Assembly: GCA_033398695.1 (NCBI GenBank) | Contig: CM065802.1 | Span: 168,015,965 to 168,079,964, forward strand | Direction: 5' to 3' | DNA: 64,000 bases | Source of the DNA: Orobanche coerulescens | Lineage: Eukaryota > Streptophyta > Magnoliopsida > Lamiales > Orobanchaceae | Shown: one piece after another, positions 1,690-64,000 of the stretch | Position numbering within the stretch: position 1 is the stretch's first letter | How the letters are laid out: every line of letters begins with the position of its first letter | The notes under the pieces: generated by a model | Databases searched by the model: none | What the model was told of the DNA's origin: nothing | Seen by the model: only the letters and a program-made list of their open reading frames with translations | Translations under genes and position numbers: made by a program

Positions 1690-1971
1690 AGTGAGTTACG
1701 GTCGTAACTGATGATTCATTACGGTCGTAACATGCATTCTTGGAATTGGTGTCTTTCTGGACGAAGACAACTTACGGCCGTAAGTCATGCTAGTTACGGC
1801 CGTAAGGAGAAAGGTACGGCCGTATGTTTTGGAGACTACGGCCATAGCATGCATTCGTTTGTGCAGAAAGGTGTTGTCAACGAAGACAACATACGGCCGT
1901 AAGTTCGGCAGGATACGGTCGTAAGTGTTGTTGTTACGTCTGTAAGGTAGTTTTGGTACGGCCGTAACCCG
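1690..1971 (+). repeat. TTACGGCCGTAA palindrome array, first part (LTR B)
   Basis: About ten copies of a 10-12 bp palindrome with consensus TTACGGCCGTAA (variants ACGGTCGT, ACGGCCAT, ACGTCTGT), spaced roughly 20-40 bp. Spacers repeat short phrases (GAAGACAAC twice, CATGCATTC twice). M is inserted inside the array, which continues at 5435. Confidence 0.9.
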
Positions 1972-3639
1972 GACAGTGTAACACCCCAAATTAGGCGGAT
2001 ATTACAGTGCCGTGGATCCCCAACTGGGACCCACTAGGCAAATGAAACTTAATTAATTAAATAATATAATTGTAGTACCGAACCACATTATATCATTAAT
2101 TACTCCGATGAGGAGTTTCAAGTACAACAAACCCAGGAAATACAGAATATATGTATATTTTATATTTAAAATAAAATATACCACACTAAATGAAAATGAA
2201 TATCCAAACAGAAATCTGCAGCGGAAATAAAAATGAAGAAACGGGAATGACTGAAAAGGACTGGGGCACCCTACTAGATTGACTGGGACTCCTCGCCGCC
2301 AATGTTCTCTTCCCGTGCTTTAGCCTTGCCATGACATGAAAACAACATCCCCCAACGGGGTCAGTTACACAGAACAACAATCCTCAAGAGTTGAATAAAC
2401 ACAATCATTATATATCATAGTTATAAAATTAAGCTGAAGAGGGACATCATAGTACGCCCGTAATGGGACGTGCAAGTGCACAAGACGAGTGTCCGGACAC
2501 ACCCGCACTTGTACCTAATTAGTCTCACGGAGGCACGTTACCGTGTGCACAGTCCATTGTGTCGGTAAACCCACCACATGACTATCGTGTGCCCGACTAA
2601 AAATTCCACACATAACCACCCGGCCACGCAATATGAACCCAGAAGGTGATATGAACAAAAGTGACCACGATGAATATTAATAAATAACAATCCGACAAGG
2701 TCAAGAGTGACTCACCGAGATGAAATAATAATGAATAAATGATAGCTCACTGAAATGATTGGAACCGTCATTCCTCGTAAATTGAATGATTAGTTTGATA
2801 ATTACAAGTCTCGACATGAATAATATATCATGAAGGAATTATGAATATGAATGAACAACAACGAAAGGAATGAATATCCTTTTAACCGAGTAATAATCCA
2901 CTTACCTCAATACTAGTGATGAAACGTCCTATCTCGAACAAATTTCCTAAGGAAAATACCGGTCGCTCGAACAACCTTGAATAACATGATTACCACCAAA
3001 TGCTCAATATACGTATCAAGCAAGATTTTAACCAACTCAAACGTCGATCCAACAATAATCAAACTCATTGGGGCATTCTAACGAATACGTTGTAAACATT
3101 CTTCCCTTTAGTTACAACCAACCCCCATAATATCAATACCAAACCTCCAAGGAATGATTCAACCCAACAAAACTCCATTAATGACATCAATAATCCAATA
3201 GAAAACCACAACTCAAGGTTACGACAACATCAATCGGAAACCCCCAAAATAACCAAAGTCAACCACCAATGGTTCTTGAATAAATCCCCCAATATTCATC
3301 AAATCCGAAATATACCCCGATAAATCCATAGGAATATATGTATCTAAGGTAGATAATCTATATCTAACATATTCCAACATAATAGCAAGCTTACACGAAG
3401 AGATCAGAAGTAAAACACTCAAATTCTGAAATTCTAGATTCAAAAAATGTTTACCTTGATTTGATGTGTCGGAGAATATGAGATGATGTTTAATCCGAAT
3501 TATAAGCTTGAATATGTTGATAGATGGATGCAGCTCGAAGAGATCTCTCCAAATCGTCCGAAATCGCCCAAAACCGTCGAGAAGAGGAGGAGAAATGAAG
3601 AAATGACGAAACTGGACTGAACTGTCTTATATATACTAA

Positions 3640-4185
3640 TCCCAGATTAGCGCACGCTAAGCGCTGATATTTAGCGTGCACTAGCGGTTAACCGGGCTGT
3701 CCAGTGAGCTCTAACTGCCTTGGTAGCGTGTGCTAATGCCTTCCAGATAGCGTGTGTTAACCCAAAATGTTAGCGTGCGCTAACTGATGTTGATGCAACT
3801 GGAGTCCAAAACCGCCTGTCCTATGACCTGCTCGCGATAGCATGTGCTACACCCAAAACTCAGCGTGCGCTACACTTACCACTAGCGCACGTTATGATCC
3901 GCTCGTAGTGTGTGCTATGAATTATTCCATTTCAGTCCAGTACCCACTGGACTCTGCCTGATCGACCTTAGCGGGCGCTACACTGATTTCATAGCGCGCG
4001 CTATCCAAACTACTAGCGTGCGCTACTTACCATTCGTAGCATGTGCTACTACAACTTAAATTCAGTCCAGTACCTTTTGGACTGTCTGCCTAAACCATGT
4101 TAGCATGCGCTAAAGCTAAGAGGTAGCATGCACTACCCGTACTCAATTAGCGCGCGCTAAGGAGAGTACGTAGTGTGCTCTACTT
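3640..4185 (-). repeat. TAGCGYRCGCTA palindrome array (LTR M)
   Basis: About sixteen units of a 12-bp palindrome, consensus TAGCGYRCGCTA, separated by 15-40 bp. Two spacers carry CAGTCCAGTACC...GGACT inverted motifs. Many units are eroded at CG steps (TAGCATGTGCTAC, TAGTGTGTGCTATG), as expected for an old, methylated copy. The array lies immediately upstream of the TATA box in minus sense. Confidence 0.9.
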
Positions 4186-4457
4186 CTCACACACAGCCCA
4201 CTACAAAGATGACAATGATGATACGTTCGGCCCGAATCTCCAACCGGGTTGAATGACGAATAATAACTGATACACGATACAATATTACTCTGAACGGTGA
4301 ATACAATGAATGAATATGAATGATGAATGATTTTTAATGAGTGAAAAATTACTGAGTGACAATATACTTGTTGGTCCCCATGAATGATGAAGACTGTCCT
4401 CACTGTACCAACACGAGTCTTTTCTAGCGCGCTTTGTCCTCAATCACGCCCACCTGA

Positions 4458-4539
4458 GAAACTTCCCAGGGGGTCACCCATCCCATAACTACTCCAGACC
4501 AAGAACTCTTAACTTTGGAGTTTCTATGAGATGGATATC
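4458..4539 (-). other. 5S rRNA-like region in Cassandra 3' LTR
   Basis: Second copy of the 5S-like block. Box C is well kept (CTTCCCAGGGGGTCACCCAT on the plus strand, from 4463). Box A is damaged: the plus strand reads CCAAGAACTCTTAACT instead of CCAAGCACGCTTAACT. Confidence 0.85.
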
Positions 4540-5025
4540 AGAAAAGAAGATGCATCTTGTTGGTATGAGTTGTCCAAATCAATTCATTTAACCACTTTCT
4601 AGTGCAGATCTCACAGGTCGAATCGCAAGCCGCGCCTCGCGCATTTTTAAGCCCATGCAGGCAGGATGCTGGACCGAAGCCCAACAATCCCCCTACCAGT
4701 ACCTGCCAGCATCTCACTCCAGAGTCTAGAAACCTCCGCGAACTAGATTTGATCACACAGACCTCTAGTGGCTGGATTCATTCACACAGTCCTCCAACAC
4801 TTGACATCAGCATCTATTCCACCCCCGTTTACTTCCGCTGCACCAATATCTCAGTTCCAGCATACTAGATTTGATCACATAGCCCTCCAGCACCTGACAA
4901 CCTCCACTGCACCAGCATCTCAGTTCCGTCCAAGTGGCAACATATGTTGCATGCCCGCCTCTCAGTTCCAACACTCTGGCAGCCTCTATTTTAGCCTACT
5001 TCGAGGAAATCCGCACCCGTGACCT

Positions 5026-5037
5026 GCTCTGATACCA
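5026..5037 (-). other. Primer binding site of Cassandra element
   Basis: The minus strand reads TGGTATCAGAGC two bases after the 5' LTR end, complementary to the 3' end of plant initiator tRNA-Met, the usual primer for this class. Confidence 0.9.
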
Positions 5038-5127
5038 ATTGTTGGTCCCCATGAATGATGAATACTGTCCTCACTGTACCAACACGAGTCTTTTCTAGCG
5101 CGCTTTGTCCTCACTCACGCGCACCTG

Positions 5128-5210
5128 AGAAACTTCCCAGGGGGTCACCCATCCCATAACTACTCCAGGCCAAGCACGCTTAACTTTCGAGTTTCTATGA
5201 GATGGATACC
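5128..5210 (-). other. 5S rRNA-like promoter region in Cassandra 5' LTR
   Basis: On the minus strand this reads like the middle and 3' half of plant 5S rRNA: AGTTAAGCGTGCTTGG (box A, 5170-5185), then GGATGGGTGACC...CTGGGAAG (box C, 5133-5154). The region is a captured 5S-like sequence inside an LTR, not a 5S rRNA gene; the 5' third of 5S and a T-run terminator are not evident. Confidence 0.9.
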
Positions 5211-5430
5211 AGAAAAGAAGATGCATCTTGTTGGTATGAGTAGTCCAAATCAATTCATTTAACCACTTTCTAGAGTAGATCTCACAGGTCGAATCGCAAG
5301 CCGCGCCTCGCGCATTTTTAAGCCCATGCAGGCAGGATGCTGGACCAAAGCCTAACAATACTGAATGATAATGAATTAATTTACAACCGGGTACTACAAA
5401 CAGTGCAGGCATTATTGTTTTTCGACGAAA

Positions 5431-5530
5431 CATTGTTACGGCCGTATGTAATGGATATTACGTCCGTAAGTCCGTTGACTTGGGAAGTAACGGCCGTAAG
5501 GTGGCAGAGTTACGGCTGTAACTCTGCGCA
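5431..5530 (+). repeat. TTACGGCCGTAA palindrome array, second part (LTR B)
   Basis: Four more units (TTACGGCCGTAT, TTACGTCCGTAA, TAACGGCCGTAA, TTACGGCTGTAA) complete the array split by M. The TATA-like TTATTTAAAGG follows within 10 bp, so the array abuts the core promoter. Confidence 0.9.
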
Positions 5531-7157
5531 TTATTTAAAGGCTTGAATGGGATTTTTGTGCTCATTTCATCACTTCATCATCTTTGTTCCGAGAGAGAGA
5601 TATTGTGGGAGAGATTTTTCATCATCAAACACTTGTGTGTTCGTGTTTAATCATCGTTATCCGTTTGTGAAGCTTGGGAAGTCGATTAACACTAGTTTTG
5701 ACGAATCGAAGAGGTTGGATCTTCAAAGGTAATTTTTTCTCCAAACCTTAGATTTCGATTTTAAGATGGAATATGTTGTTTTGTATGTTATAATCATGAT
5801 ATATGAAGAAGTATACATATGATTATGAGTTTGTATGAATATTCATTGGATTATTGAAGGATTATTTGAAGAACACTTTGAATGTTGATTTGGATTTGGG
5901 GGTTTCGGTTAGATGTGTTGAAATCTCGAATTGTATATTCATATCGGATGATTAATTGTGTTGAAGATGTTTTGTTGGATTGAATCACTCCTGGGAGGTT
6001 TGGTATCGATATAATTGAGATTGGTTGTGAACAATTGAAGATTGGTTACAATGTGTTTGTTATAAAGCCCCAATGAATTTGGATTTGTCGTATCGACGTT
6101 TTGAGTTGGTTGTGATCATGCTTGATTCGTATATTAAGCGGATTGTTGGTATTTTTGTTATTGAAGGTTGTTCGAGCGACCGACATTTCTATTTAGGACG
6201 TTTGTTCGAGGAAGGACTTTCTTCAACGGTATTGAGTAAGTTAATTCTTACTCGGTTAAAAGGATACTCATTCCTTTCGTTGTTTTTAATTCATATTCAT
6301 AATTCATTCATGGTATAGTAATCACGTTGAGACTTGTAATTATCAAACTAATCATTCAATTCACGAGGAACGACAGTTCTAATCATTTCAGTGAGCTATC
6401 ATTCATTTCATTATTATTTCATCTCGGTGAGTCATTCTTGGCCCTTGTTGATTTGTTATTCATTGTTATTCATCATGGTCACTTTTGGCCTTCTGGGTTC
6501 ATATTGCGTGGCCGGGTGGTTATGTGTGGAATATTTAGTCTGGCACACGATAGTCATGTGATCGGGTTCACATGATACAATGGACTGTGCACACGGTAAT
6601 GTGCCTCCGTGAGACTAATTAGGTACAAGGGCAGGTGTGTTCGGACACTCGTCTTGTGCACTTACACATCCCATTACGGGCATACTATGATGCCCCTCTT
6701 CAGCTTGATTTCATAACTAAGATATGTAATTATGGTGGTTGTTGAACTCTTGAGGATTGTTGTTTTGTGTAACTAACACCATTGGGGATTGTTGTTTTCC
6801 GGTCATGGAAAGGCAAAGGCACGGGAAGAGAATTTTGATGGCGAGGAGTCCTAGTGATACTAGTAGGGGACCTAGTCCATCTATTTGTTCATGCTTTCTT
6901 GTTATGTATTTTTCCGTTGCACTTCCATTTGGATTGTTATTTATTCAGTGGTGTATATATTATCTTCACATGAAATATACATGTATTCTGTTCTCATGGC
7001 TGTGTTGTACTTGGAACTCCTCATCGGAGTAATTGATGATGTAATGCGGTTCGCTACTACATTTGTACTATGTAATTCATTAATTTTCACTCGTCTGGTG
7101 GGTCTCAGTCGGGGGTCTACGGCACTATAATATCCACCTAGTTTGCGGTGTTACACC

Positions 7158-7406: not shown

Positions 7407-7420
7407 TGCAAGTGGTAGAT

Positions 7421-8998: not shown

Positions 8999-9524
8999 TG
9001 TAATACCCGTAATTTCGATTTCCGGTGATTTCTTTTTTTCGTCGAAAGTCCATTTTGACGAATCGCTCATGACTATTTCATCATTCCGAGAATGATTAAT
9101 TCTGCACTTTTTGTCATCTGATTTCGTTTCGGTGTCGTTTTGTTGAGTTCCATGCTTTTTAGCGACTTTTCCGCACTTGAGTTCGATTCTTGCGAATCTC
9201 GTTCAAAACTGCTGTTTCGAGTTTTCCATATGTCCGTTTAACTTTGTTAGACGTGTTGTGAACTTCTGTTTGGTTATTCGATCACGTATCGTGATTTTAC
9301 GGCGTTTTGGGCTATTTTATAATTTACCCAAAGTTGTGGGTATCCTCATTCGTATTTGTTGTTTTGACCCTTGTCATAGTCGCGTGCGATTAATTGTTGC
9401 ATGGTATTTCTTTTCAGATCGATGTTGTTGTTCGAGAACATTTCGTCATGTTCGTTTCGTGCATTTTCGGGAATTCGAGTCGTCGAGTCTTGGCAGCTAG
9501 GCACTGGCCGGCCACGTGCGGAAG

Positions 9525-9715
9525 GGACCTGCCAGGCGCGCACGAGCGTGACGCACAAGCTGCGCGCACGACCCGGTGCTCGTGCGGCCCTGACTGCACA
9601 TGCACGAGCGAGTGCTCGTGCCCAGTGCTCGTGCGTCCCGGCAGTTTGCTGGCAGTGGACGCGCACGACCCCGCGCACTACTGGCCGTTCGTGCGTGCGT
9701 GCTCGTGCGTTACTG
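9525..9715 (+). repeat. GCACGAGC/GCTCGTGC inverted-pair array (LTR C 5')
   Basis: A GC-rich stretch made of repeated CACGAGC and GCTCGTG arms, for example GCACGAGC-GA-GTGCTCGTGC near 9601-9620, with GTGCGTGC-type alternating runs. It ends a few bases before the TATATAT box, the same position that the other palindrome arrays occupy. Confidence 0.85.
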
Positions 9716-9720
9716 GGCAG

Positions 9721-9727
9721 TATATAT
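9721..9727 (+). promoter_or_regulatory. TATA box of LTR C (5')
   Basis: CAGTATATATGG directly after the palindrome array. The copy in the 3' LTR is at about 23975-23981. Confidence 0.75.
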
Positions 9728-10976
9728 GGTCGGGCAGACGTTTTCTTCACCATTTCTCACTTCGTTCTTCCTCTTCTGCGGCTAGAGACTTCTTGGGCGT
9801 GGAGACATGTCAAGCAACAAATCCACAAAGTTCTTGAGTTCATATCATTGATTGATCATCCTATATCATCCTTTGATCCAGCGAATCAAGGTAATCTCTT
9901 CTTAGAACCCTAGTTTCATGAATTTTGGGATTTTTGCTTTTTTGTCCGATTCGTTCCGTATTGTTGATTAATTTATGATGAGTATGATTAATCTTGGTAG
10001 TATTATTGTGTTTAACATCATTTAATCTATTGTTCTTCGTCAAATCGAAGTATATTTCTTTATTTCCTTCGAATCGACTTTTTGGGGGATTTGTTCTTGA
10101 TTTCGTTTCCATCCATTTTTGATGGATCGATTGTTGTTAAATGATGTTGTTAAACATATCCTATGGATTGTATATCCATATTTCGATTTGAAATTCCATT
10201 TTCGTATTTTGACGGGACGAATCATGTTTTTGGGCATTTTGGGGAAAACACTTGAACTTTCGTCATTTGTTCTTTGAATTCAACGACTTTAAGTCGTGCT
10301 ATGAAATTCATTTCGTTGTTGTTATTTTCCTTTTTAGTTTATTATCGCGAGTTGGCTTTCGGTGGAGTCGGCGGGTTCGTAGTCGGTTCGTGCCTACCTA
10401 CTTCGGTCGATTCTCTGCGTTGTTCTTATTCGAGGCAAGTACCTTGTCCATACTTTTCTTATTTCGTGGATATGATGATTGGTGACCATCTAAATGTGTT
10501 TGTTTGGTTATTTGAAATGAGTTTTCAAAAGATTCGGCTAGCCTCGTTAAAGGCTCACTTTCAAAACGCGTGTGTTTTGTAAATTGTGTGGGTTGTAAGT
10601 GACTACGTGAATTCTTTGGATATGTTTGGTGTTGATGTTGCGCTTGATAACGCGTGTGTGCATATATTATCTCTTTTCGGTGCGTTATGGTTTGACGTGG
10701 TGTTTTGCTAAGTGTTTGATGCCTCTTGGCGAGTTGTTGGATATCATTGGTGTGATATGTTACTTGTGCTTGATTATTTCACGGCCAGCTCGGGAGGGTC
10801 CGACGGGGCCTCGAGTGGGATTCGTGGGTTCGTCCTGATCCTAGGTGACGTGTGGTGCTTGCTTATTTTGCTAGCCAGCTCGGGAGGGTCCGAAGGGGCC
10901 TCGAGTGGGATTTGTGGCTTCGTCCCGGTCCTAGGCGATGCGAGTACGTGTGTATGTTTTGTGAACGTGTTTGCTC

Positions 10977-11300
10977 ACCTCGGGAGGGTCCGACGGGGCC
11001 AATGAGGGAATTCCAATGGCTTCGACCTGGATTCACAAGTGAAACTTCACGAGTGCGTGTGTATGTTTTGTGAATGTGTTTGCTCACCTCGGGAGGGTTC
11101 GACGGGGCCACAGAGGGAATTCCAATGGCTTCGACCTGGATTCACGAGTGAAACTTCACGAGTGCGTGTGTATGTTTTGTGAATATGTTTGCTCACCATA
11201 GGAGGGTTCGACGGGGCCACGGAGGGAATTCCAATGGCTTCGTCCTGGATTCACGAGTGAAACTTCATGGGTGCGTGTGTATTTTATGTCCGTCGAGGAC
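10977..11300 (+). repeat. Tandem repeat, about 108-bp unit, three copies (LTR C 5')
   Basis: Units begin CACCTCGGGAGGGTYCGACG at about 10977, 11085 and 11192 and contain GGAATTCCAATGGCTTCG and GTGAAACTTCACGAGTG. Related but diverged GGAGGGTCCGACGGGGCC units precede them at 10790-10920. Three corresponding units lie in the 3' LTR at 25236-25550. Confidence 0.9.
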
Positions 11301-12022
11301 GCATGACGTGGGTTTTAACCTTGTGTATTATGGTTGGTTTTATTTGTGAAAACAAAACCTTTGTGTTGTGACCCCTGTTGATTTTGGAAAGATAAGGATT
11401 CGGTAATCCTAAATTGTTTTCTATTAAAACTCTCGATGGCATTTTAAACTGTTTTACAAATTATTTCCCTTTATTTTCGATCTTTCGATTTTGGAATGTT
11501 TTACCCAAACTCTTGCCTCGGGAAGTACTTTCCGTTACATTTGGATCTTTGAGGATTCCTGATTATTATTGTTCTTGGAACTTGTATTGTATGGCTCGTA
11601 TTTGCACTTTGTTCTTGCACTAGCAAAACAGTGGAGTTTTGCTAACCCCCGAGTATTCGGGGGGTGGATGTCTGTTTTTGCATTGAGGATTGGGAGCATA
11701 ACACAGGGTCGGCACGAAGGATGATGAAAGATGAACGATACTAATCACACGAGGATCCGTTTGATGTCTTTGGTTTAGTTATAGTTTATTTTTCCTCTGC
11801 AGTATTCTTTCCCGTTGTACGGGAGTGTGTTGTATTCGACCCTTGCGTGGGCATGTATTGTGTTTGAGTTGTATGTATTTATTAAAAGACCAAAACTGTC
11901 TACGGAGTCATTTTTAGCCTTTAAGGCATTGTTGAGTTGTTCGATGTTGTTACCAGCCTGGTAGATCCTTGAGGAAAGGTTCTACGGCGTGTAATATCCC
12001 TGAGCGGATTGGGGGTGTTACA

Positions 12023-14868: not shown

Positions 14869-15439
14869 TGTAATACCCGTAATTTCGATTTCCGGTAATT
14901 TCTTTTTTTGGCGGAAGTCCGTTTTGATGACTCGCTCATGACCGTTTCATCATTCTAAGAATGATTAATTCTACACTTTTTGACATCCGAGTTTGTTTCG
15001 GTGTCATTTTGTTGAGTTCCGTGCTTTTTAACGACTTTTCCGCACTTGAGTTCGATTCTTGCGAATATCGTTCGAAACTGCTGTTTCGAGTTTCCCGTAA
15101 GTACGTTTAACTTTGTTAGACGTGTTGTGAACTTCGGTTTGGTTATTCGATCACGTATCGTGATTTTCGGGCGTTTTGGGCCATTTTGTAATTTACCTAA
15201 AGTTATGGGTATCCGCATCTGTATTTGTTGTCTCGATCCTTTTCTTGGTCGCGTATGATTAATTATTGCATTATGTTTTCATTTCGGGTCGTTGATGTTG
15301 TCCGCGAACTTTTCGTCGTGTTCGTTCCGTACATTTTCGGAAATCGAGTCGTCGAGCCCTGGTGGTCGAGCACTGGCCGGACGGTTGCGGATCGGCCGGA
15401 CGTTACGGGTTCGGCCGATGATTGCGGGCACCGCCGGAC

Positions 15440-15745
15440 AGCGCGGGCAGAACCGTGTAGCGCACGCTATCGCCGGAAGATCGCGGCGCTAATCGCGGCA
15501 GGAGTAGCGCACGTTATGCGATCGGCCGACGCACGCTAGCGGGCCGAGGCAGTAAGGCAGTGGGGTACTGGACTCGGGTGGATCGGCAGGTAGCGCACAC
15601 TACTGCCGGACACTACGTACGCTACGACCGGCAGGTAGCGCACGCTACAGCCGAAAGGCTGCGCGCGCCACCTAGCCGAGCATTGTCTCTGGACTGCGGC
15701 CTGGGCCGATAGCGTACGCTAGCTCGGCAGCCTAGCGCACGCTAG
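15440..15745 (+). repeat. TAGCGCACGCTA palindrome array (LTR D 5')
   Basis: About nine units such as GTAGCGCACGCTAT, GTAGCGCACGTTAT, GTAGCGCACGCTAC, ATAGCGTACGCTAG and CTAGCGCACGCTAG, in a GC-rich context. The TATAAAT box follows at about 15756. The region corresponds by flanking alignment to the GCACGAGC array of C. Confidence 0.9.
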
Positions 15746-15754
15746 TCCGGCCCA

Positions 15755-15762
15755 GTATAAAT
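15755..15762 (+). promoter_or_regulatory. TATA box of LTR D (5')
   Basis: CCCAGTATAAATGTGACAG immediately downstream of the last palindrome. The 3' LTR copy is at about 21242-21248. Confidence 0.75.
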
Positions 15763-16857
15763 GTGACAGAGCAGTCACATTTCCTCTCGTTTTTCACTTC
15801 CTTCCTTTTCTGTCCGCGGCTGGCGATTCGGAGGTGACGCAGCCATGTTGTTTAACAACAAATCCTCGAAGTTCTTGAGTTCATAACATCAATCAATCAT
15901 CCTATATCGTCCTTTGATCCAGCGAATCACGGTAAATTTTCTTAGAACCCTAAATTCTTGAATTTGGGGGTTTTTGCGTTTTTGTCCGATTCGTTCTGTA
16001 GTGTTGATTAAGTCATGATGGTATGATTAATCTTGGTAGTATTCTTGTGTTTAACATCATTTAATCCATTGTTTTTCGTCGAATCGAAGTATATTTCTTG
16101 ATTTCCTTCGAATCGACTTTTTAGGGGATTTGTTCTCGATCTCGTTTTTCATCCATTTTTGATGGATCGATTGTGGTTAAATGATGTTGCTAAACGCATT
16201 CTGTGGATTGTATATCCATATTTCAACTTGGAATTCCGTTTTCGGGTTTTGTCGGGAAGAATTGTGTTCTTGGCCGTTTTGGGGAAAACACTTGAACTTT
16301 TGTCATTCGTTCTTTGAATTCAACGGCTTTGAGTCGTGTTAGGGAATTCATTTTCATTGTCGTTATTGTCCTTCATAGTTTATTATCGCGAGTTGGCTTT
16401 CGGTGGAGTCGGCGGGTTCGTAGTCGGTTCGTGCCAACCTACTTCAGTCGATTCTTCGCGTTGTTCTTATTCGAGGCAAGTACCTTGTTCATACGCTTCT
16501 TGTTTTGTGGATATGATGATCGATGGTCGTGTTGGTGTGTTTGTTTGGTTATTTGCAAATGAGTTTTCAAAATATTTGTTTTAGCCTTGTTAAAGGCTCT
16601 CTTTCAAAATGCGTGTGTGTTTTGTGAACGGTGTGTTTTGGGAATTGATTACGATTTGATTATTTTGATCGTTGAGGGCTTTGATGATACCCCTGTTATT
16701 TAAAGTATGGAATCGCCTATTCCGTGTTTGATCTTGTTATTGTGTTTTGAAGAGTTGATAATGATGTCGGATAAGTGGCCATCTCTAGTAAGTATTCTTG
16801 ATGAACTTACATTCTTAGCATATTAGTATTGCATGAGTAACGCGTGTGTGTGTATGC

Positions 16858-16995
16858 TCACTACGGGTTAGATCCGACGGGGTCTCGGTAGGGCTCGACG
16901 AAGCTGTGGAACCGCGAGCTTACTTTTAACCACTACGGGTTAGATCCGACGGGGTCTCGGTGGGGGTCCACGAAGCTGTGGGTCCGCGGTTAATT
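16858..16995 (+). repeat. Tandem repeat, about 70-bp unit, two copies (LTR D 5')
   Basis: Two units starting CACTACGGGTTAGATCCGAC and containing GACGGGGTCTCGGTAGGG. The matching pair in the 3' LTR lies at about 22345-22480. It occupies the place of the 108-bp repeats of C. Confidence 0.85.
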
Positions 16996-17235
16996 GTGGT
17001 GCATTTTGCAAATGTGATTTTATATTGGCATTTCCGGAAATGAGTGCTTTTGAACAGTTTTCATGATTGCATGCATCGATTAAGTGTGTAAGAGGTAAGT
17101 TGTTCGTTTGGCTAGCTTACTTGGCTAGGATGGCACTAGAGTATTTTGTTGTTTGTGTTAAATCCTTTAATTGTGGATTTTGATATTGGAAGACGAACCT
17201 TGTTGTCGTTCTCGTGTATTGTGAGTTGATGAGAG

Positions 17236-17360
17236 TTGGGGCTAAAATCCCAACGGTTTGGTAAAGGTCATTTTACGGATTTGGGGCTAAAATCTCAACG
17301 GTTTGGTAAAGGTCATTTTACGGATTTTGGGCTAAAATCCCAACGGTTTGGCATTTTGGG
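17236..17360 (+). repeat. Tandem repeat, about 47-bp unit, three copies (LTR D 5')
   Basis: GGGGCTAAAATCCCAACGG followed by TTTGGTAAAGGTCATTTTAC, repeated two and a half times. The 3' LTR holds three units at about 22719-22855. Confidence 0.9.
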
Positions 17361-23529: not shown

Positions 23530-23534
23530 ATTCG

Positions 23535-40965: not shown

Positions 40966-40968
<3 letters not shown>

Positions 40969-43458: not shown

Positions 43459-43639
43459 TGTAATACCCGAGATCTTTGTTCCAGTTTCGTTGAGTTTTTC
43501 TGCGGATTATCGGATTGGCATTGTCCATATCTTTGGAATGTTGTGCCATGTTTGGGTGTGTCATGAGTTGACACGTGTTTGATTTCTATTCCAGATCATT
43601 TCTTGAGTTTTGACTCATTTCAGTGCAGAGCAAGCTACA

Positions 43640-50016: not shown

Positions 50017-50021
50017 ACTCC

Positions 50022-50578
50022 AGGTTAGCGTGCGCTAGCCCTTGTGCGTAGCGTGCGCTAACGGGTAATTTGGGTAGTCCAGTACCCACTGCGCGCTACG
50101 TACCTTTTTGTAGCGTGCGCTACGGCCATGCCATTAGCGTGCGTTAATACCCATTGTTAGCGGCGCTAACGAATTATGTGATGCCCAGTACTGGAATCCA
50201 GAAACCGTCTGTCCTCTGATCTGACCTCGGTAGCGTGCGCTACACCCAATATTTAGCGTGCGCTATAATATCGATTGCGTACGCTAAATATCACTCATAG
50301 CGTGCACTATGAATTAATCCAGTGCAGTCCAGTAGCCACTGGACTCAACCTGATCCGTCCCTAGCGCGCGCTACTCCACATATTTAGCATGCGCTACTAC
50401 AACCCACTAGCGCGCGCTACTTACCACTCGTAGCGTGCGCTACATATAACTCACCTGCAGTCCAGTACCTTCTGGACTGCAACCAGGGTAACATTAGCGT
50501 TCGCTAATGCTGAGTGGTAGCATGCGCTACCTGTACTCAATTAGCGTACGCTAAAAAGAGTACGTAGCGTGCGCTACT
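50022..50578 (-). repeat. TAGCGTGCGCTA palindrome array (K 3' LTR)
   Basis: About eighteen units, mostly perfect (GTAGCGTGCGCTAC five times or more, TTAGCGTACGCTAA, TAGCGCGCGCTAC). Spacers contain CAGTCCAGTAGCC...GGACT and CTGCAGTCCAGTACC motifs. Confidence 0.93.
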
Positions 50579-50838: not shown

Positions 50839-53800
50839 CTAAGGGTCAAACAACTCGGGGTAATTCTCCCGCATACTATCCTCGGTTTCCCACGTAGCCT
50901 CTTCGACTCCGTGTCTAGACCACTGAATTTTAACCAAAGGAATCATCTTATTCCTCAACTGCTTGATTCGCCGCTCTAAAACTCGTATAGGACGCTCCTC
51001 ATATGAATGATCGTCGGCGATCTCGATTTCATCGAACTGAAGTATGTGACTCGGGTCGGCAACATACTTCCACAACTGAGAGACGTGAAACACATTGTGA
51101 ATTCGGCTTAACGCCGGGGGTAAAGCCAATCGATAAGCTAACTCGCCTACTCGATCCAAAATCTCGAACGGTCCAATGAATCTCGGACTCAACTTTCCCC
51201 TCTTCCTAAAACGGAAGATACCACGACTCGGGGATACCTTGACCAACACATGGTCACCAGCCTCGAACTCTAATGGTCGACGATGGTTATCTGCATATGA
51301 TTTCTGTCGACTCTGAGCGGTCAACAAACGACTCCTGATCAAAGTTACCTTCTCACGGGCGGCTATAAGCATAGCGGGCTCAGTGCCAATTGATTCTGAT
51401 AGGTCGTCCCAACACAACGGAGATCGACAACGACGACCATACAAGGCCTCGTAAGGTGCCATCTTAATCGAAGAATGCCAACTATTATTATACGTGAACT
51501 CGATCAATGGTAGTTGGGCTTCCCAATCGTCTTTCCAATCGAAGACGCATGCCCTCAACATGTCCTCTAATGTCTGAATAGTCCTCTCTGACTGCCCGTC
51601 GGACTGAGGATGAAAGGCGGTACTGAGATTAAGCTGAGTTCCCATAGCACGATGAACTGATTTCCAAAAATGCGACACAAACCGTCCATCACGATCGGAA
51701 ACGATACTTTTAGGAGTACCATGCAGTCTCACTATCTCTTTGATAAACAACTGGGCAAGTCTCTCGGGACCCCACGTATCCTTAATCTCAAGGAAATGAG
51801 CCGATTTAGTTAAGCGGTCCACAATTACCCAGATCGTATTCATGTCACGACGACTCGTCGGCAAACTCGTGATGAAATCCATAGAAATGTCTTCCCACTT
51901 CCATTCTGGAATAGGGAGAGGTTTCAGCATACCCGCTGGTCGCTGATGTTCAATCTTAACTTATTGACAAGTTAAGCATCTCGAAACAAATTCTGCGACT
52001 TCTCGCTTCATATTACTCCACCAGTAATTTTGTTTCAAGTCCTTATACATCTTGCTAGACCCCGGATGAACAGAATAAGGGGTAGCATGAGCTTCTCTCA
52101 AAATCGAGTTTTTCAACTCGTCATCCGCCGGTACGCACAACCGATTCTTGAATCTCAAAAGTCCATCCTCGTGGACCATGAATCCAGGGGCTTTCGCCTG
52201 AGCCACATCCTCACGGATGCGCAACAATGATTGGTCTGAAACCTGCTTCTCTCTGATTGCCTCCTCAAGTGACGATGAAATATCTAACATACAAAGCTGT
52301 CCTTGAACTCACTGAAGCCAGACCTCGATCTCGGGTCTAAGGAATTCCTGTTGAAGTTCCTTCTGAACCGTTAAACGAGCAAGAATCTGCTCCTGAATGG
52401 ACTTACGACTCAAGGCGTCGGCGACAACGTTCGCTTTGCCCGGGTGGTAAAGGATCTCAATATCATAATCTTTGATTAATTCCAACCACCATCTATGTCG
52501 CATATTTAACTCCTTCTGAGTAAATATATACTTTAAACTCTTATGATCGGTGAATATCTGACAGGTAACGCCATAAAGATAATGACGCCAAATCTTCAAA
52601 GCGAACACCACGGCTGCTAGCTCCAGGTCGTGGGTCAGATAATTAACCTCGTAAGGTCTCAATTGCCGTGAAGCATAGGCAATAACCTTTCCATTCTGCA
52701 TGAGCACACATCCGAGACCTTGTCCGGACGCATCACTATAAACCACAAATCCTTCCGTCCCCTGCGGCAAGGAAAGTACAGGTGCTGACATTAACCGGCT
52801 CATGAGTTCCTCAAAACTCCGCTGACACGCGTCGGACCACGTGTATTTCTTATCCTTCCGTAAAAGGTTCGTCAAGGGTTGAGCGATTCTAGAAAATCCC
52901 TCTATTAAGCGCCGATAATAACCCGCTAATCCGAGAAAACTTCGGATTTCCTTAACATTCTTCGGAGGTAGCCAATCTCGAATAGCCTCCGTCTTCTGAG
53001 GATCGACACGAACTCCGTCGGATGAAATTACGTGTCCAAGAAACGTCACTTCGGACATCCAGAATTCACATTTGGAAAACTTCCCATAAAGTTGCTCTTG
53101 TCTCAACACGTCGAGAACCTGATGAAGGTGAAACTCGTGTTCCTCCCGGTCACGAGAATAAATCAAAATGTCATCAATGAAGACAACCACAAATTGATCC
53201 AAAAAGTCGATGAAAACCCGATTCATTAACTCCATGAATACCGCAGGTGCATTAGTTAAACCAAACGGCATTACCACGAATTCATAATGACCATAACGTG
53301 TTCGAAACGCTGTTCTCGCGATATCCGACTCTCGAATTCGCAACTGATGATATCCAGATCTTAGGTCGATCTTGGAAAATACTGAAGCTCCCTGAAGTTG
53401 ATCTAAAAGATCATCGATACGGGGTAGAGGATATTTATTCTTGATCGTCACCCGGTTTAATTCTCTGTAATCAATACACAAGCGGAACGAACCATCCTTC
53501 TTCTTGACAAATAAAACTGGTGCTCCCCACGGGGACGCACTCGGTCGGATATAACCTTTCTCGAACAACTCCTCAAGTTGGTTCTTTAACTCCTGCATTT
53601 TGGTCGGGGCCATCCGGTACGGTGCCTTCAATATCGGGGACGTACCAGGCTCCAACTCAATCGTGAATTCCACATCTCTCTGTGGAGGCAAACCAGGTAA
53701 CTCGTCTGGAAAAACATCGGCATATTCCCTCACTACCGGAATGTCCGTCAACATTACTGGTGATTTCTCGGTTTTAGTCATATAGCACCAATAACCAACA

Positions 53801-55554
53801 CACCCCTGATTGAGTAATCTCACTGCTTTCATCAAATTAATGACCTTACCAGAACAGCCGGGATTACCTCCCTGAAACACACATTCAACCCCATCGTCTG
53901 AAATGATAGTGATCATACGCTTACAGACACTAATGATGGCATCATGACGATCCATCCAATCAATACCCAGAATGACGTCGTCTCTAGGAAAATCTACTAC
54001 GATTAGGTCTGCTAGCCATACACGGCCATGAAGCTGAATCGGACAATTCTGAATCTCACGATTTCCGATAATTCTTCTACCGTCAGGTAGACCAATGACA
54101 TAAGGCTCACAACTAGTAGCACTACCCAGACGTAGTCTACTCAAGCATAACTCGGAAATGAATGAATGCGATGCACCAGTATCAAAAAGGGTACACACAG
54201 GTTGAGATAGAATATCGAGTGTACCTGATATCATCCGGGCCTCTGGATCGTCGGTCTTCTTCATCTCATAAATTCGGGGCTTGCCGGCCCCCGAACCGGA
54301 CGCTCCCGTCTCGATAGCTCTTAGCTCCGCCTTTAGCTCTGTCGTCTTGAGCAGCCACCGAGTGGCCTGATTACGCACCGCTGAATGTCCTGGGGCCTGA
54401 GATGACGCCGGAGTGGGTTTAGAGTCCCTTCGGCAAAACGGGCCCTATGCCCGGCAATCCTGATTGTGGCACGTGATGATCGCCGGATATTTGGTGCTGA
54501 TATGGCCCTGTTCCTCACAGTTGAAACAGGTGATGGCCGAACTGGCCGCTCGTGACTGAGATTCCGCAGGTTTAGACGCCAGGGGAGGTCGCTCAGAAAA
54601 AGTAGAGCCCGCACGTGGTTTCTTGAAAGTGGCCTGGCTCCCATCAGACTGATTACGGTTCTTGGACTTCTTGCTAGCAGATGAAGGTTGCTACTTAGCA
54701 ATCTCCTTAGCAGTAAGCTCATAGGTAAGAGCTTTCTCAATGAATTCGGCCAACGTGGTGCAATTATGATTGAGCAGCTGTAGTCTCATACGGGGTTTCA
54801 GCCTCTTGCTGAAATACTTGATTTTGTCCGCCTCAGAGTGAATGATAGACGAGGCGAACGGAAGAAGTTCCTGAAATTTTTCGGCGATGGCGAGAACATC
54901 ATCATCCGCCGAAACGTCGGGAGTGAGTAATTCCGACAACTTGGCCTCCCTGAGTGGGGCCGGATAGTACCTCTCCATCATGAGAGTTTTGAACTGATCC
55001 CAAGTACATGATCCGTCCGTGGGCTTCAACGATAACCACCATCAATGAGCGCTCTTACCAAGGTAGTAAGCCGCAACTGAAACTTTATGCCCTTCAGGGC
55101 AATCCACCATAGCAAATAACTTATCAAAATGCTCAAGCCAATGAACAATATCCGCCGGCTCAGATGAGCCCTCAAAGGTAGGTGGTCGCTGGCGAGAGAT
55201 ATCGCTAATGATATTGCTTACACCCCTCTCTTGCCTCTGAGGTGGCGGCGGAGGAGCCTGTTGATTTTGAGTAGTGGAGTTATGCATCGCCTCCATTAGT
55301 TGTGCCATCTGAGTCATTTGGGCCATCATGCCCTGCATAAAAGCCAGTGGGTCAACTCGAACACCCTCTGACTGAGCTGTGTCCCGGGTACGGCTCCCTG
55401 ATAGCGAATGATCACGTCTAGGCGAATGAGTGGCAGCGTCACTGCTCGATGAGTTAGCATTATTCCTAGCATTCGTACGTGTATTCACACGAGCCCTCGG
55501 GATTCGGCCCGCTCCACGGCCTCGTCCTCCACGTCCTCTTCTTGCCCTCTCCAT
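50839..55554 (-). pseudogene. gag-pol polyprotein of element K (five stops, otherwise in frame)
   Basis: One frame from ATG 55554 (Arg/Gly-rich start MERARRGRGG) to TAG at 50839. Order: gag (PPTFEGSSEPADIVHWLEHF near 55170; FIEKALTYELTAKEIAK near 54700), zinc knuckles, protease (FDTGASHSF, Asp at about 54183), RT (FIDDILIY at about 53170-53181), RNase H (VVYSDAS near 52734; FTDHK near 52550), integrase (zinc region before CLTCQ at about 51965; core MDFITS, SDRDGRF and a Glu giving DD35E spacing), and a C-terminal chromodomain (GVEEATWETED). In-frame stops lie at 55042, 54691, about 54447, 52309 and 51961. Three small deletions wreck knuckle two, and knuckle one ends Tyr instead of Cys. The enzymatic motifs are otherwise intact. 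A stretch of about 490 bp separates the 5' LTR from the ATG. Confidence 0.95.
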
Positions 55555-56048: not shown

Positions 56049-58539
56049 TGTAACACCCCAAACTAGGCGGATATTACAGTGCCGTGAACCCCCGACTGGG
56101 ACTCACCAGGCGAATGAAAATGGATGAATTACACAGGATAAATGTAGTACCGAACCACATTACAACATCAATTACTCCGATGAGGAGTTTCATACAACAC
56201 ACCCAGGATAATATAGAATACTTGTATATTTTATATGAAGATAAAATACACAACACTGAATGAGATGAGTATTCAAACGGAATGTCTGCAGCGGAATAGA
56301 TGAAGGAAACATAAATTACTGAATAAATGACTGAAAAGACTGGGGCCCCCTTCTAGTATCATTGAGACTCCTCGCCGTCAACATGCTCTCCCCGTGCCTT
56401 TGCCTTGCCATGACCTGAAAAACAATATCCCCAAACGGGGTCAGTTACACAGAACAACAATCCTCAAGTGTTGAAACTACACAATCATGATATATCTGAA
56501 GTTATGAATTATCCTGTCGAAACATACGCAATCAAACATGCTATATGAATCAACTATCAGTACGGCTCAAGGGAATGGCGCCACACTACGCCCGGGATGG
56601 AAATGTGTCCGTGCACAAGCCACCAACGAGTATCGATCGAATACACGCGTGGTCTTGTACCTACTCAGTCTCACGAAGCCATCAACTCGTGTGCACAGTC
56701 CAATGTGAGGCCACCAACCAACACACGACTATAATGTGCCCGACATGAAAATCCTACACATACCAACCGGCACGCTAGTATGACCCGGAATGCCACGATA
56801 TAACAAAAGTGACAACGAAAATGAATAATGACTCACCAAGATGAAATGATGGTGAAATGAATGACAGCTCAATGAAATGATTGGAACCGTCGTTCCTTAT
56901 GACTGAGGTGATTAATTGACAATGACAAGTTTTGATACGGTTAATACAATGATGAATGAGTTACGATTATGAATGAACAACAACAAAAGGAATGAATATC
57001 CTTTTAACCGAGTAAGAATTAACTTACTCAATACCAATGAAGAATGTCCGTCCACGAACAACGTTCTAAGTGAAATACCGGTCGCTCGAACAACCTTGAA
57101 TAACAATAATTACCAACAACCGTTCAATACACGTATCAAGCAACAAAACACGACTAACCCAAAGGTCGAAATAACGATAATCAAACTCATAGGGGCATTC
57201 TAACAAATACGTAACCAACCACACGACTTCGAAAATATCCAATCCCGAATATATATAAACCAACACCAAAATGAGTATATCGAACTAACAAAACACTTCA
57301 ATGATATCAATAATCCAATAAGAATCCACAATTCAAGATTACAACATCAATCGAAAAATCCCCAATTAACCGAAGTCAACCCCAAGGGTTCTTGAAATAA
57401 TTCCGAAAATAGCCATTAAATCCGTAGGAATATATTTATCCAAGGTAGATAATCCATATCTAACATATTCCAATGATAACCCAAGCTTACACGAAGAAAT
57501 CGGAAGGAAAAACCCAAAAATCCGAAATTCTAGATCCAAGAGATTAATACCTTTGATTCGATGTTAAGGAGATGATGAAGTGATGATAATCCAACTCAAA
57601 GACTTGAAGATGATGATGGATGATAGAAGCTCGAAGAGAACTCTCCAAAATGCCCGAAATCGCCTGAAACCGATGAGGGAATGAGAAAGGATGATAGAAT
57701 GACGAACTCAGGCTAACTGTCTAATATATAGCCACTCCAGGTTAGCGTGCGCTAGCCCTTGTGCGTAGCGTGCGCTAACGGGTAATTTGGGTAGTCCAGT
57801 ACCCACGGTCCGAACACGGTAGCGCGCGCTACGTACCTTTTTGTAGCGTGCGCTACGGCCATGCCATTAGCGTGCGTTAATACCCATTGTTAGCGTGCGC
57901 TAACGAATTATGTGATGCCCAGTACTGGAATCCAGAAACCGTCTGTCCTCTGATCTGACATCGGTAGCGTGCGCTACACCCAATATTTAGCGTGCGCTCT
58001 AATATCGATTGCGTACGCTAAATATCACTCATAGCGTGCGCTATGAATTAATCCAGTGCAGTCCAGTAGCCACTGGACTCAACCTGATCCGTCTCTAGCG
58101 CGCGCTACTCCACATATTTAGCGTGCGCTACTACAACCCACTAGCGCGCGCTACTTACCACTCGTAGCGTGCGCTACATATAACTCACCTGCAGTCCAGT
58201 ACCTTACGGATCGCAACTGTGGTAACATTAGCATGCGCTAATGCTGAGTGGTAGCGTGCGCTACCTGTACTCAATTAGCGTACGCTAAAAAGAGTACGTA
58301 GCGTGCGCTACTCCTCACGCACAGCCCACAACGAAAATGACAATGATGATAAACACGGCACGAAACTCCAATTAGATTAGTGACGAATGACGATTGATAC
58401 ACGATACAATTACTCTGAATGATGAATACCATGATTGAATATGAGTGACAAATGATCAATAATGAGTGAAATTACTGAGTATCAATTACTGAATGATAAA
58501 TACTGAATGATAATTACTGAATTACAACCGGGTATTACA
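56049..58539 (-). mobile_element. 5' LTR of element K
   Basis: TGTAACACCCC (56049) to GGGTATTACA (58539), 2491 bp, minus sense, adjoining the primer site. It holds the undeleted palindrome array. Confidence 0.95.
57740..58308 (-). repeat. TAGCGTGCGCTA palindrome array (K 5' LTR)
   Basis: Colinear with 50022-50578 but with one additional unit (GGTAGCGCGCGCTACG near 57820) in the stretch deleted from the 3' LTR. The TATA box follows at 57722-57733 in minus sense. Confidence 0.93.
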
Positions 58540-61610: not shown

Positions 61611-61639
61611 CATCCTGCTCCCTCCAGCCTAAAAACTCA

Positions 61640-62740
61640 AATGGTTCTTGTTCTAACCCCTCATTTTATGAGACCATCATTCAAGCCAGTCCAGCCTACA
61701 ACCCTCACCACAAGGATCTTAGATCTACTACATATGTATCTATTTGGTCCTAAGCCAAGGACACTAAGTGGCATAAAGCATGCACTAGTAGTAGTGGATG
61801 ACTATTCAAGGTACACTTGGATTATCTTCGTGTACAAGAAAAGTGAAAGCTTAACCAAGCTACCTGAGCTGCTGAGAAAGATTCAAAATGAGAAATCCCT
61901 CTCCATCATTAAGATCAAATCAGACAAAGGAGGAGAATTTCTCAACAAGGCGATCACTGATTATAGCGATCCGAATGGAATCCAAAGATGAGCTTTACTC
62001 ACGTGACCCCCAGTAATGATGTTCCGAAAGAAGAAACAGAACCCTGAAGGAAGCAGCCAAGTCCATGATTGCAGAAGCAGACCTACCCAAGAGGTTCTGG
62101 GCTAAAGCTGTCAACACAGCTTGCCATACTCAGAACAGGAGTATGATAGTAGGGAGACATCGCAAAACTCCCTATGAGGTTTGGAATAATAGAACTCCTA
62201 GTGTTGCTTACTTTCATATTTTTGGTTGTAAGTGTTTGATCCACAACAATCGTAAAACACAACTAAATGCCTTCGATTCTAAAACTGATGATGGTCTCTT
62301 TATGGGATACTCACAAAGAAACAAGGCATATAGAGTCTTTAACAAAAGAACCTTAGTTGTGGAAGAAACACCCCATGTTGTATTTGACGAATCTACTGTT
62401 GAGTACAGAAACCAAGTTGAGCTAATTGAGGATAAGCTCAGATCAGCAACCCTCAAAGAAGTCATTGTATATGACACAGGAATGGTGGACTCATCTGCAG
62501 ATCAGCCCAATAACCCAACTGTAGCTGCTGAAGACCCAACTGCAGATCAGATAGGAACACTAAACCTACCTGATCCAGTTGCCGCTGATGAAGACTCATC
62601 TGTTGCTGATAAAGACTCATCTGCAGACCAGACCAGATTCCAACCTGCAGATGACAAGACTGTAGCTGATCCAGTTGCAGACCAAGGAGACCAGATCCAG
62701 GCTGATGCAGACAGAGCGGAAATTCACCAGAGCAATCCTA
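61640..62740 (+). pseudogene. Ty1/copia integrase fragment, broken
   Basis: SFKPVQPTTLTTRILDLLHM opens the core. The first catalytic Asp is Tyr (HMYLFGP instead of HMDLFGP). VVVDDYSRYTWIIFVYK and IKSDKGGEFLNKAITDY (second Asp present) follow. A frameshift region at 61985-62060 destroys the catalytic Glu block. The second frame then runs AEADLPKRFWAKAVNTACHT, TPYEVWNNRTPSVAYFHIFG, DDGLFMGYSQRNKAYRVFNK and VEETPHVVFDESTVEYRNQV, and ends in an Asp/Ala-rich linker (ADQ repeats). LTR E cuts the frame: the apparent ATG-TAA end is made of the LTR's first bases. Its position after RT-RNase H is out of normal order. Confidence 0.92.
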
Positions 62741-64000
62741 TGTAATATCCGCAATTTCGAATTTCGGTAATTTTCTTTTTTTCGGAGGAAGTTTGTTTTC
62801 ACAACTCTATCATGGCCGTTTTGTCATTCCGAGAATGATTAATTCTGCACTTTTTGTCATCCGAGTTCGTTTTGGTGTCGTTTTGTTGAGTTCCGTGTCC
62901 TTAATCGACTTTTTCACGTGGGAGTTCGACTTGGTAAAGTCACCATTAATTCTTGGAAACTCCAAAAATTTTGAATCTTTGCAACATTATAGAGAATCAA
63001 GTTAGCTTTCCAATGGTTCAAATGGTGAGTCAATCGGAGTCCATACGAAGGAGTTATGGTCGAAATAGCGAAGACTGCACGGTGTGCCTTTTTGGTGTTG
63101 AAGGGGGCTGTACCGTGTGCCGCGGCACACTCAGGCTGTGCCGCGGCACTAAGCTGATACCTGGGCGTTTTTGGTGGCCCTGGGCCGCGGCACACTTGTC
63201 CTGTGCCGCGGCACACGGGCTTTTTCTGCGTTTTTTAGCAGATTTGCGAGGAGAAAAACTTCATTTTTTCTCCTCTCTTCTTCCACCTTCATCTTAGGCG
63301 ATTGTGGGCGATTCTTGGGCGATTTGAGTGCTCCAAAACTTGTAGAGATCATCTACCTCAAGTCTTGTTGTAGATTTTCGACCTCTACTTGAATCCTTCA
63401 TCCAAATCAAGGTATATTTCTTGATTATCCTTCAAGTTGACTTTTTGGAGAAATTGTTCTTGATTTCGTTTCTAATCCGATTTTGATACATCGATTGGTG
63501 TAGTATGATGTTATTAATCATGTTCTATGGGTTGTATATCCATATATCAAGTTTGTTTAACTCGATCGACGATTCGAGTGTTCTTGGGAATTATTGAACA
63601 TTTAGTGTTCGATTAAATGTCCCAATGAGTTTCCCTTCGATAGTTTGTTGGGATTTCCGTTGTTTTGGCCTTGATTCTCGTCGTAACCATGTGTTATTGT
63701 TACTTCCGGAGGTTTATAGGTGTCCGAGGATTCCGATGTTGAATTCCATTTGGTGATTGATGATTCGTGTGGTGTTATTCTCGTAATACTCATGGTGCTA
63801 TCGCGTTCTTGATATTGTTCGGGGGTTCGGGGCTATTCGACCGCGTCCTATCCGTCGTCTCGTTGCGATTGTAATTTCTAGGCAAGTACCTTGCCCATAC
63901 TTTTCTTATTTTGTGGATATGATGATCGGTGATCGTATTAGTGTGTTTGTTTGGTTGTTTGAAATGAAGTTTCAAAAGATTTCGGTTTGGCCTCGTTAAA
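62741..64000 (+). mobile_element. Partial LTR E (C/D family), runs off the window
   Basis: TGTAATATCCGCAATTTCG at 62741, then blocks identical to C and D LTRs (TCATTCCGAGAATGATTAAT; TTTTTGTCATCCGAGTTCGT; GGCAAGTACCTTGCCCATAC near 63881). It holds GTGCCGCGGCAC palindromes (63115-63214) and a donor-like AATCAAG|GTATAT at 63412. Bases 62736-62740 (TCCTA) would be one target copy. The LTR end and internal region lie to the right of the window. Confidence 0.9.
63115..63214 (+). repeat. GTGCCGCGGCAC palindrome array (LTR E)
   Basis: Four units in 100 bp: GTGTGCCGCGGCACAC (perfect 16-bp palindrome, 63115-63130), GTGCCGCGGCAC (63137-63148), GGGCCGCGGCACAC (63182-63195) and GTGCCGCGGCAC (63203-63214). 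Same position as the arrays of C and D, but a different sequence. Confidence 0.93.

Follow-up and report, generated by a model that had tools for sequence, protein, structure and literature searches.

Arrays of CpG-containing near-palindromes in the long terminal repeats of nested retroelements from Orobanche coerulescens

Palindrome arrays of the window and shuffle controls

Nested long terminal repeat (LTR) retroelements crowd a 64,000-bp stretch of plant DNA from Orobanche coerulescens (contig CM065802.1, positions 168,015,965 to 168,079,964), hereafter called the window, as judged by self-comparison, the reading of LTR ends and primer-binding sites, and protein families. Candidate arrays of short CpG-containing palindromes were located in 14 LTR copies, named B, D, C5, C3, E5, E3, G1, F3, F5, G2, I, K, M and N, the last being the GCCGCGGC LTR that the original prediction for this DNA had called E. 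That prediction had placed such arrays directly upstream of a TATA-like box in nearly every LTR, each with its own palindrome. Arrays of 4-18 units, about 80-570 bp long and built from 12-bp CpG-containing palindromes or near-palindromes, were indeed present in the U3 region of B, D, E (two copies), F (two copies), G (two copies), I, K, M and N. The arrays, the TATA-like boxes that follow them and exact copies of a second motif, TACTGGACT, are located as follows.

1696..1967, plus strand: array B, first part; 10 units TTACG-GC-CGTAA, mostly at a 22-bp pitch
5436..5521, plus strand: array B, second part; 4 units; TATA-like TATTTAAA at about 5532, 22 bp past the start of the last unit
3648..4182, minus strand: array D; 18 units of the TAGCG-CA-CGCTA type; TATA at about 3635, 24 bp past the start of the last unit
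3934..3942, minus strand: TACTGGACT in a block gap of array D, with another at 4064-4072
9500..9720, plus strand: array C5; irregular GCACG/CGTGC half-sites, not above shuffles
23755..23960, plus strand: array C3, in the 3' LTR of C where it resumes after the E insertion; irregular, not above shuffles
15458..15744, plus strand: array E5; TAGCG-CA-CGCTA type; TATAAATG at 15756
15566..15574, plus strand: TACTGGACT in array E5
20948..21230, plus strand: array E3; TATAAATG at 21242; TACTGGACT at 21052
27045..27368, minus strand: array G1; 10 units of the TWACG-TA-CGTWA type in an LTR fragment with sense start at about 27558; TATAAAGA at about 27030
32654..33020, minus strand: array F3; 11 units of the TAACG-TA-CGTAA type in a Copia 3' LTR (about 32025-33170); TACTGGACT at 32744
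38266..38658, minus strand: array F5; 12 units in the 5' LTR (about 37639-38810) of Copia element F; TACTGGACT at 38357
39786..39865, plus strand: array G2; 4 units; LTR 39577-43368
43626..43999, plus strand: array I; 12 units of the TAGCG-CA-CGCTA type; LTR start 43459; TATAAATA at 44012; TACTGGACT at 43735
50026..50576, minus strand: array K; 16 units and one damaged; LTR 48332-50805; TATA at about 50013; TACTGGACT at 50076, 50326 and 50459
57743..58310, minus strand: array M; 18 units; LTR 56049-58539; TATA at about 57730; TACTGGACT at 57793, 58060 and 58193
63117..63214, plus strand: array N; 4 units GTGCC-GC-GGCAC at a 21-bp pitch; LTR from 62741, cut by the window end

The damaged unit of K (sense position 709) was excluded from the unit logos and from later analyses.

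Two shuffle controls were applied. In the first, copies (at most 2 mismatches) of the best palindromic CpG-containing 12-mer were counted and compared with 200 dinucleotide shuffles per array. Recurrence lay above all 200 shuffles in 11 of the 14 LTR copies (observed versus shuffle maximum: B 13 versus 2, D 15 versus 3, E5 6 versus 5, G1 8 versus 2, F3 10 versus 4, F5 11 versus 4, G2 3 versus 2, I 11 versus 3, K 16 versus 4, M 18 versus 3 and N 4 versus 3); E3 tied (6 versus 6), and C5 (4 versus 5) and C3 (3 versus 4) remained below the shuffle maximum. In the second control, all near-perfect palindromes (5 of 6 pairs, with CpG) were simply counted and set against 200 shuffles; the count was above all shuffles in only 5 of 14 arrays (B, G1, G2, K and M), equal to the shuffle maximum in D, F3, I and N, and under it in C5, C3, E5, E3 and F5. 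For the whole window 176 near-perfect palindromes were counted, compared with 105.8 ± 9.8 in 40 shuffles (highest 123). Since recurrence exceeded the shuffles in 11 copies but the plain count in only five, the distinctive feature is the repetition of one near-palindrome more than palindrome density as such. Two complete LTRs, a Copia-type 3' LTR at about 7420-8895 and a solo LTR at about 34259-36699, are free of arrays, as is a partial LTR ending at about 30669. With two complete LTRs lacking an array, the arrays must be called frequent but not universal, which narrows the claim that nearly every LTR carries one.

Unit, spacing and constraint

In the unit logos, information is concentrated in 12 bp, with flanks at about 0 bits in D and M and low in most others; F and B keep up to 1.2 and 0.9 bits, respectively. 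Units had been picked by similarity to the family consensus (at most 4 mismatches) and by hand, at least 10 bp apart, a few in E being placed by position. The unit TAGCG-CA-CGCTA is common to D, E, I, K and M, and the other types are TAACG-TA-CGTAA (F), TWACG-TA-CGTWA (G) and TTACG-GC-CGTAA (B). The pattern NNRCGNNCGYNN fits the units of all arrays except N, and those of C only weakly (2 matches per copy). Of 101 matches to RCGNNCGY in the window, 90 fall within arrays, which cover 4848 of 64000 bp (7.6%), an enrichment that is partly circular because the pattern was derived from the arrays. Among six CpG-CpG distances tested, that of 2 bp was raised 12.9-fold, the next (0 bp) 5.9-fold. The claim that each LTR has its own palindrome thus holds for the half-sites, which vary, but all arrays except N, and weakly C, contain variants of one RCG-N2-CGY core.

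The units are oriented quasi-palindromes: in 83 TAGCG-type units the sense centre was CA in 57, CG in 11, TA in 8, TG in 3 and something else in 4. Given this oriented centre, a purely symmetric palindrome was dropped as a description of the unit. Independent decay of CpG was also dropped as the source of the CA centre, as it would be expected to yield about as many TG as CA, compared with the 57 CA and 3 TG seen.

Spacing between adjacent units was counted in one array per family (B, M, I, E3, F5, G1, G2 and N), with D, K, E5 and F3 omitted as copies or homologues and C5 and C3 for want of a period. Fifty-three of 76 spacings measured 21-24 bp and 33 of them exactly 23 bp, and the remaining long spacings included 9 at 50-55 bp and 5 at 64 bp. 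The modal spacing in B was 22 bp and the short spacing in N 21 bp, and Tandem Repeats Finder reported periods of 22-23 bp in several arrays. The spacers have lengths near 11 bp and differ in sequence. In many arrays about four units make up a block, and the gaps between blocks measure about 39-43 or 52 bp; in array B, the gap in which solo LTR D sits amounts to 53 bp (58 bp if both target copies are kept).

Array and promoter are in register in five array types, the TATA-like box lying 22 bp (B), 23 bp (E), 24 bp (D, K, M and I) or 26 bp (G1) past the start of the last unit. The second motif, TACTGGACT, occurs in 13 exact copies in the window, all 13 of them within arrays and all 13 in sense orientation. 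It is sited in array gaps of D, E, I, K, M and the Copia element F, with its centre 20-21 bp ahead of the next unit in 13 of 13 cases. The 51-52-bp gaps of D, I and K, together with one of the two in M, also hold a similar half in reverse, 20-22 bp away from the unit before it, and in array B an ACGAA-containing sequence stands at the end of its three large gaps. Fixed pitch, TATA register and TACTGGACT had all been missed in the original prediction.

LTRs D and M belong to one LTR type and have diverged from each other. When they were compared, changed non-CpG sites amounted to 7/130 in units, 96/287 in spacers and 337/1633 in the rest of the LTR (Fisher 3e-11 against spacers and 3e-6 against the rest), and gap events numbered 0, 10 and 38, respectively. 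Paired LTR copies (K/M, E5/E3 and F5/F3; C5/C3 was omitted), which differ mainly by decay after insertion, showed no such difference, with 12/283 sites changed in units, 33/681 in spacers and 171/4938 in the rest (units versus rest, p 0.50; units versus spacers, p 0.74). The combined contrast between D/M and the paired LTRs gave p 0.012 against the rest and 0.002 against spacers. As the units decay normally between paired LTRs, they are not mutation-cold, and, judging by the single diverged pair, active lineages seem to retain their units by selection.

The stretch from array to promoter diverges between otherwise similar LTRs. Identity between C5 and E3 is 77-93% over sense positions 1-499 and about 825-1521 of C5 and lower beyond, whereas windows from the array through the promoter are only 45-62% identical. 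N, too, is similar to C and E at its start (80-83% over the first 190 bases) but carries a third palindrome. Judged from these alignments, array and promoter either were swapped as a cassette or evolve very fast.

Possible roles of the arrays and related LTR features

The arrays are a real promoter-proximal module under apparent constraint. The suggestion of a functional module had been made before, and unit constraint between D and M, a near-fixed pitch and a TATA register in most families speak for it. We consider it somewhat probable that the arrays constitute an enhancer array for a dimeric DNA-binding factor, which would be the best of the three earlier suggestions. They would then act as the upstream enhancer of the LTR promoters, as rows of 12-bp sites in which RCG and CGY half-sites flank a 2-bp centre and to which a putative dimeric, sequence-specific host DNA-binding factor, or a related family of factors, would bind. 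A pitch of about 23 bp, roughly two helical turns, would let adjacent dimers touch or stack and, with the TATA box one pitch downstream in most families, cooperative binding could feed directly into initiation. A second putative factor would bind TACTGGACT at the head of a block, at its fixed distance. Half-sites that vary by family and a promoter stretch that is entirely different in otherwise similar LTRs probably reflect the tracking of factors or tissues and an escape from silencing. It is the two-turn pitch, the TATA register, the locked second motif and the 12-bp unit with two half-sites that lead us to prefer protein binding on DNA.

Several observations weigh against this enhancer reading. 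The TATA box lies 52 bp past the start of the last unit in both F3 and F5, that of G2 lies out of register in a TA microsatellite, and no TATA-like box was found after array N. The arrays of C have no 23-bp period, and TACTGGACT has no exact copy in B, G1, G2 or N. When layouts were compared across families with permuted spacings, a likeness between F and G1 was only marginally significant (p 0.03-0.04; G1-F5 and G1-F3) and the six other of the eight pairs gave no match (p 0.15-0.86), so no general cross-family layout match was found; spacers of G1 and F5 agree at 29/78 positions as a raw count. To these points add the small number of arrays with an excess in the plain palindrome count, a constraint test that is a single LTR pair, and divergent units that could have been overlooked as units were picked by consensus similarity. 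No known factor was matched in this sequence analysis.

A further point against protein binding is that, for most arrays, RNA of either strand folds better than its dinucleotide shuffles (20 per array in one run, 40 in another). Palindromes might accordingly pair into transcript hairpins that serve dimerization and packaging or host small-RNA silencing, as proposed for maize Sireviruses, in which small RNAs are in excess at palindrome-rich LTR regions according to the available parts of two studies (PMC5311732, PMC10760457). Sense z-scores were -8.8 for B (run on a joined sequence with 11 surplus bases), -3.0 for D, -3.8 for I, -3.5 for E3, -3.7 for G1, -4.0 for G2, -9.9 for K, -6.2 for M (-8.2 in another run) and -13.2 for N, and in N, F3, C5 and C3 sense folding was better than antisense folding. 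However, any row of self-complementary units folds well, and the Copia array folds barely better than shuffles (F5 -0.3, F3 -2.6), as does C (-2.0 and -1.0). With the fixed CA centre, paired units have C-A mismatches in the sense transcript but G-U pairs in the antisense one, and in K, M, D and I it is the antisense strand that folds better (K -18.5 versus -9.9, M -16.2 versus -6.2). Transcript pairing would also leave the TATA register and the fixed TACTGGACT distance without a reason, and we regard it as unlikely, although it fares best among the alternatives.

Less likely still is a CpG platform, in which the units merely gather CpGs, often two of them 2 bp apart, whose methylation state switches the promoter and which are bound by readers of CG methylation. 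In 11 of 14 arrays the CpG observed/expected ratio, at up to 1.88, is above the 1.04 found outside, and 16 of 18 changes at CpG sites of units between D and M are transitions. For Del (Tekay) LTRs, the available text of Cruz et al. (2014; PMC4029996) describes a 5' CpG island that is variable and was found in grasses, whereas the eudicot group sampled had none; it defines no units, and the word "palindrome" has 0 matches in the main text. In our arrays, the CpG-free outer TA/TA positions of D and I belong to the most constant ones, although the counting of CpGs would not require this, and there is no CpG excess in D (1.03), I (0.90) and N (0.83), while F has a GC content of only 36%.

The 22-23-bp tandem periods and the copy numbers that differ among families would also suit a neutral satellite, in which a 23-bp unit spread by slippage or unequal exchange, spacers drifted and recent turnover mimics conservation of the unit. 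By eye, however, adjacent spacers seem unrelated to one another, whereas the units resemble each other; constraint on the units is seen in the D/M comparison but not in the paired LTRs, and second motif and TATA keep fixed distances. As gene conversion confined to 12 bp is unlikely, we hold this explanation to be improbable. A DNA-shape element (Z-DNA or cruciform) in place of a binding site is highly improbable, for purines and pyrimidines alternate over 8 bp in GCGCACGC and ACGTACGT but not in ACGGCCGT (B), GCACGAGC (C) or GCCGCGGC (N), so that the earlier idea of alternating purine-pyrimidine DNA as a general module falls as well, and loopless 12-bp palindromes make poor cruciforms.

Returning to the enhancer array, we tentatively extend it to a proposal that is rather less secure than the array itself and may well not hold. 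Copia and Gypsy elements of one plant might share a rigid two-motif grammar (12-bp dimer sites, 23-bp pitch, TATA register and TACTGGACT 20-21 bp ahead of a block), whether acquired by cassette exchange or through convergence, and all units of an array might switch half-site together as the trans-acting factor changes, which would make it an arms-race or niche-switch module across superfamilies. If so, an LTR feature described for Sireviruses would be a promoter module of wider occurrence in plant retrotransposons, perhaps one that can be exchanged, and fast evolution of the promoter region despite a stable layout would be accounted for. The spacing grammar would be precise enough for fishing out the host factor, would offer a simple route to LTR promoter prediction and would give a testable answer to when and where retrotransposon families are transcribed.

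Short repeated sites near a transposon promoter that are bound by a sequence-specific factor are familiar from the U3 repeats of Tnt1 and Tto1 and from the subterminal 12-bp TnpA sites of En/Spm. The protein that binds the En/Spm sites is encoded by the element, whereas between K and M no frame of at least 200 aa, the only size looked at, was listed besides two pol frames. A 2016 Genome Research study of maize Sireviruses reportedly found that the regulatory part of the LTR holds a variable region of palindromes linked to small RNAs.

The original prediction knew of no named LTR feature of this kind, but the RM boxes of Sireviruses are one. As described in the available text of Bousios et al. 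(2010; PMC2829016), which also mentions symmetry in box I of Tnt1, they are palindromic, high-copy, mostly CpG-island-forming boxes upstream of the LTR TATA whose consensus varies by element; within the Ty1/copia set compared they were confined to Sireviruses, and 12 of 13 had a CGG-CCG core. The present arrays resemble them in being dyad palindromic boxes in high copy with one consensus per element (9-18 units in B, D, E, F, G1, I, K and M) and in lying clustered in the upstream LTR half, a short way ahead of TATA (B, D, E, I, K, M and G1; at 52 bp in F; not in G2 and N). By contrast, G2 and N hold only 4 units, C is irregular and the centre is oriented here. By base composition, the arrays have CpG observed/expected ratios of 0.83-1.88 and GC contents of 0.36-0.69, with less than 0.5 in F and G1. 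Unlike the Ty1/copia Sireviruses, the K-M carrier is a Gypsy element and most carriers look Gypsy-type; the CGG-CCG core is present here only in the B consensus (ACGGCCGT), N having CCG-CGG and D, E, F, G, I, K and M having RCG-N2-CGY without it. Fixed pitch and a second motif, both present here, are not mentioned in the RM-box text of PMC2829016 as far as available. Maize Sirevirus palindromes likewise belong to Copia elements, with CACCGGACNNNGTCCGGTG as the maize Copia motif in the accessible part of PMC10760457. Gypsy carriers, the RCG-N2-CGY core and the rigid spacing would be new relative to RM boxes. Palindrome arrays in Gypsy elements, a pitch in TATA register, a second motif at a locked distance and a grammar shared by Copia and Gypsy were not found in the part of the open-licence literature that was available, an absence that is weak evidence.

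Copies of the arrays were also sought in other sequence collections. Pattern matches in two contigs of a viral collection (L001 and L002) were rejected, as these contigs read like phage or bacterial DNA. Two TAGCG-NN-CGCTA palindromes lie 11 bp apart at 12696-12730 of L002 and are probably an unrelated operator. A pattern scan of a genome contig collection gave one match, in a bacterial contig (L003), two further pattern scans for array copies gave none, and a protein scan of the viral collection found no relative.

Elements carrying the arrays and neighbouring features

The LTRs and coding fragments that complete the inventory of the carriers are as follows.

1359..7155, plus strand: LTR B, split by solo LTR D; before it lies an integrase end resembling the one in the K-M element
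1977..5398, minus strand: solo LTR D, within a block gap of array B, carrying a TRIM-like insert at 4368-5359
8999..12022, plus strand: 5' LTR of element C
14869..17996 (end approximate), plus strand: 5' LTR of element E, nested in the 3' LTR of C
20354..23529, plus strand: 3' LTR of element E
36969..37295, minus strand: Copia-type gag fragment (Retrotran_gag_2) within element F
50839..54444, minus strand: pol frames of the Gypsy element between K and M, with RVT_1, RNase H and protease, and an integrase C-terminus with a weak chromodomain match

The K-M element is of the Gypsy type by its domains RVT_1, RT_RNaseH and RVP_2. The Chromo match in its integrase is weak (19.6 bits, under the curated cut-off of 25.1; E 0.00088); among at least 120 matches listed, integrase relatives are 43-70% identical, the named ones come from many flowering plants, and some contain PF00385. 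The long LTRs of this element presumably fit a placement in Del/Tekay. Self-comparison showed that the stretch upstream of LTR B is 85% identical to the K-M integrase end. Element F was assigned to Copia by its gag fragment, and D, E, C, G, I and N look Gypsy-type from LTR ends and similarity, not from coding domains.

Elements C and E form a nested, LARD-like pair at 8999-26282, with E inside the 3' LTR of C. Their LTRs measure about 3 kb and their internal regions 2.4-2.6 kb, and because the latter lack a frame of 200 aa, both elements look non-autonomous. LTRs B, D and C3 are each broken by later insertions. The TRIM-like element in solo LTR D has 321-bp direct repeats, 96% identical and about 670 bp apart, and a primer-binding-like TGGTATCAGAGC on the minus strand. 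The solo LTR-like insertion in Copia element F (34259-36699) has TTGAG on either side and carries no palindrome array. In LTR G2, tandem duplications of 70 and 79 bp (41376-41904) lie downstream of long TA and TG microsatellites. The stretch at 45560-46340 has repeated TACCGACG/CGTCGGTA (8 in 45401-46400) and an end like CACTACAA, and is probably a CACTA-type DNA transposon with subterminal repeats.

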